Shown here: positions 10,036 through 43,443 of the stretch, piece by piece
Layout of the letters: each line of letters begins with the position of its first letter
Numbering within the stretch: position 1 is the first letter of the stretch
Assembly (NCBI RefSeq): GCF_028864635.1
Contig: NZ_CP104850.1
Location: forward strand, 1,060,001-1,124,000
DNA length: 64,000 bases
Source: Cloacibacterium sp. TD35
GTDB lineage: Bacteria; Bacteroidota; Bacteroidia; Flavobacteriales; Weeksellaceae
Direction of reading: 5' to 3'
The notes under the pieces: generated by a model
Told to the model about the DNA's origin: nothing
The model's input: the letters and a program-made list of their open reading frames with translations, nothing else
Databases searched by the model: none
Made by a program: the position numbers and the translations under genes

Positions 10036-12291
10036 GTGAAATTCAAAATCTTTATTCTTTCTGTTTTTTTGATACCCATTCATATGGTTTTTTCGCAAAA
10101 TTTAAAAGGAATATATTTTCTTGATGAAATTTCTAAAACACCTGTTTCTTCTGTATTGGTAGTAAATTCGGTCGAAAATTTTCAGAGAAATTCAGATGAA
10201 AACGGATGGATAAGTTTACAAGGTTTTAATTTCGAAGACCAGAAAATATATGTTTCAGGAATTGGTTATGAGAAGGAAGAATTTGATTTGAGTCTTATTA
10301 AAAAAGAAAAAGATTTTGGTTACATTTTTCTCAACCCAAAAATTGTGAGTATTGCAGAAGTTCAATTGAAAAATTCAGTAAGAAATAATATTTTTCAAAC
10401 CATTTCAGAATTAGATATTCATCTTCGCCCGATTAATAATTCACAAGAAATTTTGCGTTCTGTTCCTGGGCTTTTCATTGGGCAACATGCAGGTGGTGGC
10501 AAGGCAGAGCAACTTTTTATCAGAGGATTTGATGTAGATCACGGAACTGATGTAAGCCTTTCTGTGGACGGTATCCCTGTCAATATGGTTTCCCACGCTC
10601 ACGGACAAGGTTATGCAGATTTACATTTTGTAATTCCTGAGTTTATTGATAAGGTAAATTTTGATAAAGGTCCTTATTTTGCAGAAAAAGGCAACTTTAC
10701 CACTGCAGGTTTTGTAGATTTTAAAACCAAAGATTTTTTAGAAAACAATTTTGCTAAGTTAGAATTGGGGCAGTTCAAAACCTATCGTGGAGTTTTGGGT
10801 TTAAACCTTTTGAAAAATAAAAAAGATGTAAAAGAACAAAGCTTATTTTTAGCTACAGAAGCGTATTTTACAGACGGATATTTTGAGAGTCCTCAAGATT
10901 TTAACCGTTTTAATGGAATGCTGAAATATCATGGAAAGTTGAATGATAATAATTTCTTGACTGCATATTTTTCAGGGCTTTCCAGTAAATGGAACGCTTC
11001 AGGACAAATACCAGATAGAGCAGTTGAAGCAGGAACAATTGGCTGGTTTGGTGCAATTGATGATAATGAAGGTGGCAAAACTTCTCGATATAATTTTACA
11101 GTCAATTTGAAATCTTATCTCAATAATGGAGGAAAATTCACTAATCAGATTTTTTATTCTAAATATCAATTTGAACTCTATTCTAACTTCACTTTTTTCT
11201 TGAATGACCCAATAAATGGTGATCAAATTCGCCAAAAAGAAGATAGAAATCTGTATGGTTTTAATTCTACTTACGAAAAATCTATACAATTATTGGGCTT
11301 AAAATCTGAAACGGTTGCAGGAATTCAGCTTCGCTATGATGAAGTCAATGATTTGGAACTTTCCAGAACCAAAAACAGAACCATCACTACAGAAGCGTTA
11401 AAATTTGGTGATGTAAATGAAATGAATTTAGGCGCTTTCTGGAGTCAGAAAATTTCTTTGAATTCTAATTTTGATGTTACGCCTTCCGTAAGATTTGATT
11501 ATTTTGATAATCAATATAATGATAAACTTTTGAATCAAAAATTGAAATCAAATTCTAATATTTTTAGTCCGAAACTAAGGTTGAATTATCGTTTAAATGA
11601 TCAAGTGCAGTTGTATTCTTACTTTGGGAAAGGCTTCCATAGCAATGACACCAGAGTTGCAGTTTTAGAAAACGGTAAAAAAGTTTTGCCACCAGCTTTA
11701 GGAACTGATTTTGGTGGAATTTTTAAATTGGGTGAAAAATTGATTTTACAAAGCGCAATTTGGTATCTTTGGTTAGATCAAGAGTTTGTTTATGTCGGAG
11801 ATGAAGCGGTGGTAGAAGAAGGCGGAAAAACCGAAAGAATGGGAATTGACATCATTGCTCGTTACGAAATTTACAAAAATTGGTTTGCAGATTTTAATTT
11901 AAGTATGGCAAAACCAAGAAGTTTAAATGTTCCTGCTGATGAAAATTTCATTCCTCTAGCTCCGAAATTAGTGAGCACAGGCGGGGTTACCTACAGAAAA
12001 GAAACGGGTTTCAACGGAAGTTTGCGCTATAGATTAATGGGAGATAGACCCGCAAATGAAGATAATTCTGTGGTGGCAAAAGGATACTTTGTTTGGGATG
12101 GAACTATAAATTATACCACCAAAAAATGGGAATTGGGAGTTTCTGTTCAGAACATTTTTAATGTGAAATGGAAAGAAACCCAATTTGATACAGAAAGTAG
12201 ATTATATAATGAAAGTCAATCTATTTCAGAGATTCATTTTACGCCAGGAACTCCGTTTTTTGGTAAATTAAGTTACACTTATTTCTTCTAA
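10036..12291 (+). CDS. TonB-dependent outer membrane receptor, probable nickel importer
   Basis: This 751-residue outer membrane protein begins with GTG and a signal peptide (MKFKIFILSVFLIPIHMVFSQ). A carboxypeptidase-regulatory-like beta domain (about 25-95) is followed by a plug domain (about 110-235) and a beta barrel ending in the aromatic residues YTYFF, as expected for barrel insertion. The plug is rich in His (His169, His187, His189, His197) in the segments DVDHGTD and SHAHGQGYADLH. It lies between nikR and hypD, so nickel or a nickel chelate is the likely cargo; Helicobacter FrpB4 is a known NikR-controlled TonB-dependent nickel receptor. Energy would come from TonB/ExbB/ExbD, such as those at 28317-31290. 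The substrate is inferred from context. Confidence 0.85.
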   Translation: MKFKIFILSVFLIPIHMVFSQNLKGIYFLDEISKTPVSSVLVVNSVENFQRNSDENGWISLQGFNFEDQKIYVSGIGYEKEEFDLSLIKKEKDFGYIFLNPKIVSIAEVQLKNSVRNNIFQTISELDIHLRPINNSQEILRSVPGLFIGQHAGGGKAEQLFIRGFDVDHGTDVSLSVDGIPVNMVSHAHGQGYADLHFVIPEFIDKVNFDKGPYFAEKGNFTTAGFVDFKTKDFLENNFAKLELGQFKTYRGVLGLNLLKNKKDVKEQSLFLATEAYFTDGYFESPQDFNRFNGMLKYHGKLNDNNFLTAYFSGLSSKWNASGQIPDRAVEAGTIGWFGAIDDNEGGKTSRYNFTVNLKSYLNNGGKFTNQIFYSKYQFELYSNFTFFLNDPINGDQIRQKEDRNLYGFNSTYEKSIQLLGLKSETVAGIQLRYDEVNDLELSRTKNRTITTEALKFGDVNEMNLGAFWSQKISLNSNFDVTPSVRFDYFDNQYNDKLLNQKLKSNSNIFSPKLRLNYRLNDQVQLYSYFGKGFHSNDTRVAVLENGKKVLPPALGTDFGGIFKLGEKLILQSAIWYLWLDQEFVYVGDEAVVEEGGKTERMGIDIIARYEIYKNWFADFNLSMAKPRSLNVPADENFIPLAPKLVSTGGVTYRKETGFNGSLRYRLMGDRPANEDNSVVAKGYFVWDGTINYTTKKWELGVSVQNIFNVKWKETQFDTESRLYNESQSISEIHFTPGTPFFGKLSYTYFF

Positions 12292-38322: not shown

Positions 38323-38363
38323 TATATTCAAAGAGTTGTATAAATTCTTAAAAAAACACAAAA

Positions 38364-40406
38364 ATGAAAAAACAATTATTAACTGTTGGCTTTCTAGTCC
38401 TATTTATTGGCATAGGAAGTGCACAAGTACTAACTCATGTTGGTGCAGATGCTAAGTTGTATGTTGGAAGTGGCGCACTAGTTTATTCTGGTGGAGATTT
38501 CCAACTTAATTCTACTGTTGAAAAATCAGTTGAAAATAAAGGTAGTATAACGATAGTTGGGAATTACCTTAAAGGAGCTTCTGCTGGTGCTTCTGCAGAT
38601 GGAAAAGAATTTGTAAGCGTTTATACAGATGTTAATGACTATGGTCAAGTTCAAATTCTGGGTGGAGGAGCTCTTACAGATGCTAGAATGACTGTTCAAA
38701 GACCTGCCGCGTCATCATCTTATTTCAATGCTACTTTTCCTGTTGCTTTTCCCTATAAAGATAACGTAAAGTATTTTATGACGAGTTTTGGTAAAGCCGA
38801 AACCGACTTTAAGGGAGATTGTGCAATTGGAGCTAATTGTGGTCCTTCAATTTACAACATGACCCTTAGAAAATGGAATAATAACAAACTTGTAAACGAT
38901 GCCGTGCCATCAGGAGCTGCATTTGTTGCTGGGGATTATTATCTTGTAAACCTTAGAGATACTGGAATGCAGAATGCTATGACGGGTATTATCGGTTACA
39001 AGGGTTTGCCTTCTCCAGGCGAATATAATGCTACAGCTAAAGGTCTTATTAATGGTTACGAGGCTACATTTTCGGATTTAGATTATAATACCTGGAAAGA
39101 GTATGTAAATCAGTATAACGAAAAGTATAAAACCTACCTAGGAGACATCAGTTCAACTAGTAAAACTTATGCTAAAAATACCTACAGATTTGGAAATCCT
39201 TACACATCTAATCTAGATTTAAGTGCATTTGATGGCGCTAATGCTTGGCTTTTCATAAAAAATAATAGTGGTAATAGAACCATAAAGCAAGCTACTACTG
39301 ATTTAATGATAAAGGATTTTTATGTAAGCAAGAGAACTTCAAGCTATGGAATTACATGGAACCCAGTAAAAGGTTCAGAAGATAATAATACTTCAGGATC
39401 TTCTACTTACCACAAAGCAATGTTTGATGGAACACAATGGACAGGTGACGCTCAAGCGTTATTAATTAGACCATTTGAAACTTTCAATTTGAATTTTCCT
39501 TTAATTGATCCTAGTGCTACCAAACTAGGAAGTAGAATTATAGATATTGAAGTGAAATTTGGAGATAATCATAAAACTTATAGTTATAGCCCAAGTGGAA
39601 CAATAGGTTCAACACCAGTGCCTTATGGAAGAGTCTCTTCTGGAGCATTAAAAACAGAATCAACAGCTCAAAAATTAGCTTCAAATACTTATAATTTTTA
39701 TCAAGCAGGGATATTCCTAGTTAATAATGATAAAATTTTAGGTTCTCCTGCTTTCTTAGTTGGATCTAATTATAATACAGAGTCTGGAAGTGCTAGTACA
39801 AATACAAACGATGTATATGCTTTTGGAATAAATCCTGATACATCAGTAGCTTACAACAGTAAAAAAGATTTTAATACTTTTAATACTGATACTTATATTG
39901 GAAAACCTATGGGTATTGGATTTAATAATCTTGTTTTGGGTAATCAATATGAGCTTAGATTCAATCTTTATGAAGGGTCAATATTCAATGAGGTAAAAGA
40001 CTTATCAGCTGATAAATTTTATTTATTAGATAAAGAAAATCAAAAAGTTACTGAAATATCTGCAGCAAATTCTTATAAATTTGTGGTATCAAACAGTGAT
40101 TATAATTCTAGATTTGAGATTTATTGGAAATCTTATTCTCCTACGGGAACACTTGGTACAGATGTCGTTAAAAATGATAACAAATCTACATTTATTTACA
40201 GCGAAAATGCTCACAATAAAGTTAGATTTGAGAAATCTGGAAAAGCAGAATTGAGTATTTATGAAATGGGAGGAAAACTTATTACGAGTATTCCAAATGT
40301 TTCAACTACTAATGATTATATTTTACCGATAGATAATAATAGAGTATACGTAGTTATTGTTAAGTATAATGATGGAACCGTTAGAACGATAAAAACTATT
40401 AAATAA
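38364..40406 (+). CDS. Type IX-secreted surface protein with C-terminal sorting domain
   Basis: This 680-residue protein has a signal peptide (about 1-20, MKKQLLTVGFLVLFIGIGSAQ) and a C-terminal type A sorting domain (about 605-680) with VRFEKSGKAELSIYEMGGK and the closing DGTVRTIKTIK, which directs it through the type IX secretion system. The middle is beta-rich with many Asn, Ser and Gly and no domain I recognise. It is followed after 9 bases by a small proline-rich protein and then by a thioredoxin-like protein, probably as one unit with the small protein. A surface or extracellular role is likely. Confidence 0.8.
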   Translation: MKKQLLTVGFLVLFIGIGSAQVLTHVGADAKLYVGSGALVYSGGDFQLNSTVEKSVENKGSITIVGNYLKGASAGASADGKEFVSVYTDVNDYGQVQILGGGALTDARMTVQRPAASSSYFNATFPVAFPYKDNVKYFMTSFGKAETDFKGDCAIGANCGPSIYNMTLRKWNNNKLVNDAVPSGAAFVAGDYYLVNLRDTGMQNAMTGIIGYKGLPSPGEYNATAKGLINGYEATFSDLDYNTWKEYVNQYNEKYKTYLGDISSTSKTYAKNTYRFGNPYTSNLDLSAFDGANAWLFIKNNSGNRTIKQATTDLMIKDFYVSKRTSSYGITWNPVKGSEDNNTSGSSTYHKAMFDGTQWTGDAQALLIRPFETFNLNFPLIDPSATKLGSRIIDIEVKFGDNHKTYSYSPSGTIGSTPVPYGRVSSGALKTESTAQKLASNTYNFYQAGIFLVNNDKILGSPAFLVGSNYNTESGSASTNTNDVYAFGINPDTSVAYNSKKDFNTFNTDTYIGKPMGIGFNNLVLGNQYELRFNLYEGSIFNEVKDLSADKFYLLDKENQKVTEISAANSYKFVVSNSDYNSRFEIYWKSYSPTGTLGTDVVKNDNKSTFIYSENAHNKVRFEKSGKAELSIYEMGGKLITSIPNVSTTNDYILPIDNNRVYVVIVKYNDGTVRTIKTIK

Positions 40407-42017: not shown

Positions 42018-42091
42018 GGCGAGGTAGCTCAGGTGGTTAGAGCGTTGGATTCATAACCCAAAGGTCACGGGTTCAAATCCCGTCTTCGCTA
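42018..42091 (+). tRNA. tRNA with CAT anticodon (probably elongator tRNA-Met)
   Basis: The sequence folds into a cloverleaf with acceptor stem GGCGAGG/CTTCGCT, D stem GCTC/GAGC, anticodon loop TTCATAA with CAT at 42052-42054, T loop TTCAAAT and discriminator A. It lacks the unpaired 1:72 position and the three G:C pairs of initiator tRNA. A lysidine-modified tRNA-Ile cannot be fully excluded from the sequence alone. CCA is not encoded. A terminator follows. Confidence 0.93.
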
Positions 42092-42098
42092 CAATAAA

Positions 42099-42134
42099 AG
42101 CAATGAATATTTTAATATTCATTGCTTTTTTTTT
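42099..42134 (+). terminator. Terminator after tRNA-Met
   Basis: AGCAATGAATATT and AATATTCATTGCT form a long perfect stem followed by a T-run, so tRNA transcription should end before the candidate small RNA. Confidence 0.85.
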
Positions 42135-42283
42135 AATTTCATTATTATAATCAAAAATCATATTTTTTAACGTCAAATTATCAATTTGGATTGGTAGAGC
42201 CTTATTTTTAATAAATTATAATCTCTAGGAGGTATCAGGATAAGGGTGATAAAACAAATTAATTAAAAAAATATGTGAAAAAT
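42135..42283. other. AT-rich spacer without a recognised feature
   Basis: Nothing coding is seen here. A less AT-rich patch with AGGAGGTATCAGG and a weak TATCA/TGATA inverted repeat lies at about 42228-42251; I cannot assign it. Confidence 0.4.
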
Positions 42284-42314
42284 TTTGTTAGTTTAGAAGA
42301 AATATGTATTTTTA
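42284..42314 (+). promoter_or_regulatory. Promoter of the candidate small RNA
   Basis: TTTG at 42284-42287 and TATTTTTA (7 of 8 matches to TAnnTTTG) at 42307-42314 are exactly 19 bases apart. They point rightward into sequence without a reading frame. Confidence 0.55.
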
Positions 42315-42318
42315 CACC

Positions 42319-42407
42319 GCTTTCAATGGGCCATCGCTCGAAAGCAATAAATTTTTTTTCATCATTTGTGTTTTTAGAATCACATCCTAGGATGTGATTC
42401 TTTTTTT
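42319..42407 (+). ncRNA. Candidate small RNA of about 88 bases
   Basis: Downstream of a well-spaced promoter and upstream of the leftward DUF3810 gene lies a stretch with no reading frame. It starts with the hairpin GCTTTC (42319-42324)/GAAAGC (42340-42345) around the G/C-rich loop AATGGGCCATCGCTC, continues with a U-rich linker (42350-42375) and ends with a perfect terminator stem (42376-42401) and seven T. The terminator has its T-run only for rightward transcription, so it does not serve the neighbouring leftward gene. The family is not identified; the Flavo-1 RNA motif is one possibility to compare. Confidence 0.55.
42376..42407 (+). terminator. Terminator of the candidate small RNA
   Basis: AGAATCACATCCT and AGGATGTGATTCT form a perfect 13-base inverted repeat followed by seven T on the plus strand. 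Confidence 0.8.
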
Positions 42408-43443
42408 ATGAATTTTTTCTTTCGTACAGAACTAATAAATCAATAAAATAAGAGTAAGTTACACTACCTTCCTGTTGATTAGACTTCAAGAAGATATCAT
42501 TAGTAAAATAAAAAAAATCGGTTAGTAAAGAATCGTTTTTTTCTTTGAACATCCTTTCGTTTTTTAAGTCTTTTTTTACCTCTTTAGAGAGGAATAAGCT
42601 TGCTTGAGATGCAAACTCAGGACTAGAGCTGCGCAAAGCATTTACCAAACTTTTAGTGACAAATAAATAGGCACAGTATTTGAGTTCAGAATTGTCAGAA
42701 TTTTTACAAATCAAAAAGCCTATAAAATTAGCTTCTTGTTCCCTTGCAAAACCTAATTGATGTGCATTTTCATGTGATATTGTAAATGGAAGGTAAGTAT
42801 CAGGTAATTCTGAATTATATTGTGCTTCTGTGGTAAATGGATTGTAATAGCCAAGAATTCCTGTATAGCTTATTAATGGATTAAATAAGCTGGCTTTAAA
42901 GTTGTCAATGTTTGACGTTTCAAACGGATAATACTCTTTGGGTAAGCGCTTTTGAGAATGAAGTATGCTTGACTTTAATACTTCAATGTTTTCAATTTTG
43001 AATACATTCTTTGTTGCAATTTTTTTTCTTTCTTGATTGGTTAATGCAATGTATTTTAAAGTAAGTTTTTCTAATTCTTTGCTGGATATTTCTACTTTAT
43101 TTTTGTCATAAAAAGGTTTTTGGAAATAGAGCATTCCCCACGAAATTTGATAAATAAAATAAGAAATATTTAGTATGATCAATAGAACTCTAAAGTTTCT
43201 ACTCTTAATGCTTTTGAAAAGAAAAAATAAAAGGAAAAAGATGAAAATGATATAAAGAATATCCCCAAAAGAATATTTTAAATGAGAGAACGTCTCATTT
43301 TGAAACTGTTTTTTGAAATGAAAAAAAGCAATGAGTTGCTGAACAATTATTTCGCTTTTTGAAAAGATATAGAATAAAAGAAATTGGGCAAACAATAAGC
43401 CTGCCCAAAATAATGATTGTTTATTTTTTAAAATTTTTACCAT
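42406..43443 (-). CDS. DUF3810 membrane protein with a metallopeptidase-like motif
   Basis: This 345-residue protein has membrane helices at about residues 12-35, 52-70 and 78-100, and then a soluble domain with ISHENAHQLGFAREQEANFIGF (HExxH and a downstream Glu), the pattern of a zinc metallopeptidase. This fits the flavobacterial DUF3810 family, whose function is not known. Its start overlaps the end of the ROK kinase gene by 7 bases, so it belongs to the same leftward unit. Confidence 0.8.
   Translation of the reverse strand: MVKILKNKQSLFWAGLLFAQFLLFYIFSKSEIIVQQLIAFFHFKKQFQNETFSHLKYSFGDILYIIFIFFLLFFLFKSIKSRNFRVLLIILNISYFIYQISWGMLYFQKPFYDKNKVEISSKELEKLTLKYIALTNQERKKIATKNVFKIENIEVLKSSILHSQKRLPKEYYPFETSNIDNFKASLFNPLISYTGILGYYNPFTTEAQYNSELPDTYLPFTISHENAHQLGFAREQEANFIGFLICKNSDNSELKYCAYLFVTKSLVNALRSSSPEFASQASLFLSKEVKKDLKNERMFKEKNDSLLTDFFYFTNDIFLKSNQQEGSVTYSYFIDLLVLYERKNS

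Follow-up and report, generated by a model that had tools for sequence, protein, structure and literature searches.

An uncatalogued small RNA conserved across Weeksellaceae, with a candidate antisense seed shared by paralogous loci

Results

A predicted free-standing small-RNA gene in Cloacibacterium

The window analysed here is a stretch of 64,000 nucleotides that spans positions 1,060,001-1,124,000 of the 2.6-Mb chromosome of a Cloacibacterium strain (family Weeksellaceae). A tRNA-Met gene and a convergently transcribed DUF3810 gene, the nearest named relative of which is from Cloacibacterium normanense, flank a short unit with a promoter, a 5' hairpin, a U-rich linker and a terminator (Table 1). 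The promoter is of the Bacteroidota type (TTTTG, 19 nt, TATTTTTA), and transcription would start a few nucleotides downstream of the -7 element. The spacing between TTTTG and the -7 box is exactly 19 nt, as originally predicted, with the small correction that the box ends in TTTAC instead of the consensus TTTG, as it also does in the relatives. Most of the 55 syntenic copies have TAnnTTTAC, as compared to the consensus TAnnTTTG, and the window has the same at 42307-42315.

Table 1. Location of the small RNA, its surroundings and related features in the window and in other genomes
Feature	Location	Strand	Remarks
tRNA-Met neighbor	42018..42092	+	context only; own terminator 42097-42134
-33 promoter element TTTTG	42283..42287	+	TTTTG/TTTG in most syntenic copies
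-7 promoter element TATTTTTA(C)	42307..42314	+	nearly all of the 55 syntenic copies read TAnnTTTAC or TAnnTTTGC
Small RNA, whole	42314..42407	+	94 nt, 5' end approximate; match to R1 model
5' hairpin GCTTTC...GAAAGC	42319..42345	+	sequence variable, pairing kept; two-sided changes in 4/6 pairs
Core AAUUUUUUUUCAUCAUUUGUGUUU, unpaired and invariant; proposed as antisense seed	42350..42373	+	identical in 84/84 syntenic copies
Intrinsic terminator	42376..42407	+	11-bp stem, loop CUAG, then U7; two-sided changes in 9/11 pairs
DUF3810 gene, convergent	42406..43443	-	syntenic anchor; stop codon touches the U-tract of the sRNA
Weak candidate target AAAAAAACACAAAAATGAAAAAAC	38332..38390	+	start (ATG 38364) of 680-aa T9SS-type secreted protein; duplex -19.0 kcal/mol
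Small secreted-type peptide genes with 3' modules	L337 3023-3818; L248		L337 in own genome, about 2035-2037 kb; L248 in G012
Tandem-site RNA regions, G080	L410 2324-2569; L394 421-674		near-palindrome TAGATAAATATCTACAA upstream
Tandem-site RNA regions, others	L409 2430-2575; L408 2688-2749; L411 2475-2531		2-7 sites over all five regions, those of G080 included; near-palindrome TAGATAAATATCTACAA upstream

The 94-nt unit has a predicted folding energy of -25.6 kcal/mol, as compared to -12.9 +/- 2.9 kcal/mol for shuffled sequences (z = -4.4, 0/200). The arms of the opening hairpin, GCTTTC at 42319-42324 and GAAAGC at 42340-42345, pair in the fold as had been proposed, and the U-rich linker, which is the core, is single-stranded in the MFE fold. 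The terminator stem is formed by a 26-nt palindrome at 42376-42401, and a tract of seven U is located at 42401-42407. Since the U-tract is present on the right side only, the terminator works rightward, in agreement with the claim of a perfect terminator in that orientation. The suggested separation from the tRNA also holds, with the terminator of tRNA-Met starting at 42097.

Conservation in syntenic loci

We compared 87 loci, 80 of which were found via the DUF3810 anchor and six of which were congeners identified by DNA, in addition to the own locus; one of the six congeners is the same genome as L007 and is therefore counted twice. In this alignment of the same gap in relatives, the sRNA unit is present at the syntenic position in 84 loci, own included, and is missing from those of Riemerella anatipestifer (L023), a Kaistella MAG (L017) and Chryseobacterium legu1 (L033). 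The stretch AATTTTTTTTCATCATTTGTGTTT is identical across all 84 copies, and the mean pairwise identity is 100% for the core, 73% for the terminator and 48% for the 5' part. The original prediction stressed the G/C-rich loop of the first hairpin, but the loop sequence varies among the relatives. What never changes is the U-rich linker, to which the original prediction gave only the part of a spacer.

The original prediction also hinged on conservation of the hairpin and loop in close relatives, and both hairpins are kept as structures, with compensatory changes. Among the 46 distinct sequences, 92% of the cells are paired and two-sided changes occur in 13 of the 17 pairs; slid structures are 37-55% paired, and none of 500 shuffles was as good. 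The signal comes mostly from the terminator, and the 5' helix is 83% paired, a result that leans on our choice of pairs, which were set and counted by hand. The 5' hairpin was not recovered by automated consensus folding, since its loops differ in length and align poorly. One relative contains the sRNA twice, in tandem (L014, 6162 and 6391).

The sRNA is located downstream of tRNA-Met in most relatives, as would be expected if it were a mere conserved terminator or 3' readthrough region of the tRNA, with no function of its own. However, ARAGORN identified no tRNA in 13 of the 33 sRNA-carrying loci scanned, which makes the neighboring tRNA incidental, and a dependence on tRNA-Met was rejected on these grounds. 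The terminator of the tRNA itself, the conserved promoter of the sRNA and the invariant 24-nt linker, which a bare terminator would not need, also argue against readthrough, and we consider it extremely unlikely. We give as little credence to the idea that the unit encodes a small peptide, in the frame ...INFFSSFVFLES.... The claim that there is no reading frame was right in substance, although a 23-codon ATG frame (MGHRSKAINFFSSFVFLESHPRM) exists. The ATG is kept in frame in just 22 of 47 syntenic copies and is missing from the other 25 and from 18 of 23 paralogs; moreover, both termini of the putative peptide are free to vary, and not even the synonymous sites of the core change. The peptide reading was rejected. 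The best reading of the unit is a free-standing small-RNA gene, as was proposed, with a family-wide conservation that is far above chance.

Taxonomic range and searches of catalogs

The R1 covariance model scores the small RNA of the window, a sequence that is itself inside the model, at 103.4 bits (E = 8e-16). It matched 197 of the 246 Weeksellaceae genomes and 23 of the 33 genera, and in a sample of 396 genomes from the order Flavobacteriales the matches were confined to Weeksellaceae. A search of 395 genomes from the class Bacteroidia for the 21-mer core with at most one mismatch gave only four matches outside Weeksellaceae, all with a single mismatch. Flavo-1 had been named as a family to be searched, and in an Rfam covariance search of the locus, with Flavo-1 and 6S RNA included, neither Flavo-1 nor another sRNA family matched, and only tRNAs reached the gathering threshold. 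No Bacteroidota sRNA family matched in a permissive Rfam search (E up to 10) either, and a search of the literature, with few subscription journals covered, returned nothing relevant on Weeksellaceae sRNAs or the core sequence. As far as sampled, the sRNA family appears to be limited to Weeksellaceae and, judging from its sequence, the sRNA is a real, uncatalogued small-RNA gene that has been kept across the family. A viral contig (L413, around 11919-11939) contains a copy of the core immediately upstream of a terminator.

Paralogous loci that share the core and a terminator

Many genomes have extra loci in which the core abuts different terminators, either under independent promoters or behind genes. 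The exact 21-mer core is present in 20 copies in six genomes (0 for a reversed-pattern control), and a terminator hairpin of varied sequence follows immediately after all 20. The upstream parts vary, such that in some paralogs a separate -7 box precedes the core by 20-70 nt and others are placed after a gene. Core modules also form tandem arrays, three in L183 and six behind small peptide genes in L248, and the own genome contains looser copies at 2035919, 2036390 and 2140989. An exact 16-mer (AAAACACAAATGATGA) gave about 100 matches in 16 genomes and none for the reversed control. The 77 distinct loci were sorted by a heuristic classifier into 46 core-plus-terminator modules, 13 start codons (a raw count), one site before a terminator and 17 others. 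By these sequence features, the core-bearing loci are a paralogous RNA family whose members share only the core plus a terminator.

Small secreted-type peptide genes of 73-108 amino acids, with no Pfam match, have 3' regions in which the core-plus-terminator module is repeated. A repeated element (CTTAGGGGAAAGCAAAACACAAATGATGAAGAAAAG...CTTCCCCGCTAAAG) with inverted-repeat flanks, found in one genus (L349, L364 and L403), has the same 16-mer inside.

The core always abuts a terminator and is found both in gene 3' ends and in free RNAs, which would also suit a module that mainly serves protein binding or 3'-end stability, with the sRNA as one of several carriers. In other bacteria, Hfq grips the U-rich tail and the terminator. 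The genome has a single gene for an RRM protein, which carries an RGG-type tail and perhaps binds the module; the RRM protein RbpB binds paralogous sRNAs in Bacteroides (PMC11697453), and no obvious Hfq or ProQ is reported from the Bacteroides relatives (PMC7366714). Binding of the one RRM protein encoded here is the main rival to base pairing, and the two are compatible. However, an invariant sequence of 24 nt is long for an RRM site, and the conserved complements elsewhere, tandem arrays included, would be left unexplained, and we regard a module of mainly this kind as rather unlikely.

Complementary sites in other transcripts

The complement of the core, AAAACACAAAUGAUGA, recurs in conserved leaders and one small RNA in Cloacibacterium, at the start codons of some secreted proteins and in an RNA behind a two-component system. 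The sites in the own genome were chosen by complementarity alone and then checked for conservation in congeners; therefore, the duplex energies by themselves prove nothing, and only the conservation is independent. A promoter-terminator unit (L117) has an overall identity of 80% to three congeners, all of which keep its AAAACACAAATGATGATAAAT intact; for a leader (L113), in which AAAAACACAAATGATG is likewise intact, the figures are two congeners and 78%. The sites in a 3' region before a terminator (L118) and in the leader of a secreted-protein operon (L121) are kept in congeners with small changes. In these four families the flanks diverge around the sites, and the predicted duplexes range from -21 to -29 kcal/mol. 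Near position 5183 of L335, which corresponds to 8.0-8.3 kb of the own genome, two promoter-like stretches that resemble each other are placed in tandem between a patatin-like gene and the gene after it, and the leader of the first contains a conserved complementary site.

The proteins downstream of the start-codon loci often have signal peptides, and the window contains a weak candidate target of this type (Table 1). Against 386 start regions of the own genome, the core paired no better than shuffled cores, and the count of ACACAA-ATG at gene starts revealed no enrichment; a general anti-start-codon role of the core is unsupported by either measure. In the Chryseobacterium-type genome G047, no complementary site was found within two mismatches of the 21-mer core, modules excepted, and targets there must therefore pair via shorter stretches, if the model holds.

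In G080, a leader located directly after a pair of genes for a histidine kinase and a LuxR-type response regulator (Pfam, representatives) contains seven units of 38 nt, all of which are a complete or near complement of the core plus UUUUUAGA. In G131, G160 and G091, an RNA-like region downstream of the same pair has two or three sites; taken together, four genomes from two genera have tandem sites at the same position after this two-component system. In G131, G160 and G091, the region is preceded by a TTTG-type promoter and by TAGATAAATATCTACAA, a near-palindrome that they share. The predicted duplexes with the core range from -25 to -39 kcal/mol, and the tandem-site RNAs may act as sponges. 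The roles could also be reversed, with regulation by the complementary transcripts and the core-bearing RNAs as decoys for them, and the several sites in the two-component-linked RNA and its plausible induction by a signal would be in line with this. Yet it is the core-bearing RNA that has by far the wider distribution and the greater invariance, whereas the complementary RNAs are patchy and variable outside the sites, which makes such a reversal very unlikely.

Discussion

We consider it probable that the unit is a trans-acting small RNA that acts as a base-pairing regulator, and that, within a paralogous family in Weeksellaceae, it is the core member with conserved synteny. Gene control by RNA-RNA pairing is suggested by the presence of one core in the sister RNAs and of its exact complement in other transcripts. 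The role of the core as a seed is supported by its invariance and by the conserved complements. With respect to the features of sibling sRNAs, the unit has its own promoter and an intrinsic terminator and is non-coding by sequence, the seed is common to several loci per genome, and complementarity to other transcripts is conserved.

The core would pair with mRNA leaders and start regions that hold a (U)CUAAAAACACAAAUGAUGA-like sequence, and the pairing would mostly block translation. Several sister RNAs would bring different promoters to one seed, and it would be titrated by RNAs that have between one and seven complementary sites and include a type located behind the LuxR-type two-component system. 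Possible, but doubtful as a whole, is a Weeksellaceae-wide circuit in which the seed sRNAs silence mRNAs for surface and secreted proteins and the tandem-site counter-RNAs, one type being LuxR-type-controlled, release them on signal.

Opportunistic pathogens (Elizabethkingia, Chryseobacterium) are found among the Weeksellaceae, and Riemerella, a pathogen of ducks, also belongs to the family. An sRNA that is kept family-wide with an unchanging seed would offer a handle on post-transcriptional control in this lineage. The tandem-site RNA would be a test case for multi-site bacterial sponges under two-component control.

Sponges of sRNAs are transcripts with sites complementary to the seed of an sRNA. 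The RNAs described here resemble them in having complementary sites but differ in that up to seven tandem 38-nt units are placed behind a two-component system (L394/L410). Rfp18 of Flavobacterium psychrophilum is likewise an sRNA from a flavobacterium, and secreted proteins are among its predicted base-pairing targets, but it pairs via its third stem-loop, whereas the Weeksellaceae sRNA consists of two hairpins and an unpaired core, and the two are set apart by description (PMC9723704). In the LhrC and Qrr sibling sRNAs of other phyla, several loci feed one seed, as here (PMC11697453); the sequences are unrelated and no homology is claimed. FopS and GibS of Bacteroides thetaiotaomicron belong to another taxon, the Bacteroidaceae, and FopS is reported to have been deposited in Rfam (PMC11697453). 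The Weeksellaceae sRNA matched no Bacteroidota sRNA family among the Rfam models searched; the comparison is one of descriptions rather than of seed letters. Their seed is in the 5' portion, while the core of the Weeksellaceae sRNA abuts the terminator and, in the syntenic copy, is behind the 5' hairpin. Common to both are multicopy paralogs with intergenic and 3'-derived members, a conserved single-stranded seed plus a terminator, and an RRM protein in the genome; the pairing of FopS and GibS around start codons would also be shared (PMC11697453, PMC7366714). Although membership in the same family is not claimed, this likeness suggests that the Weeksellaceae sRNA works most like FopS and GibS.
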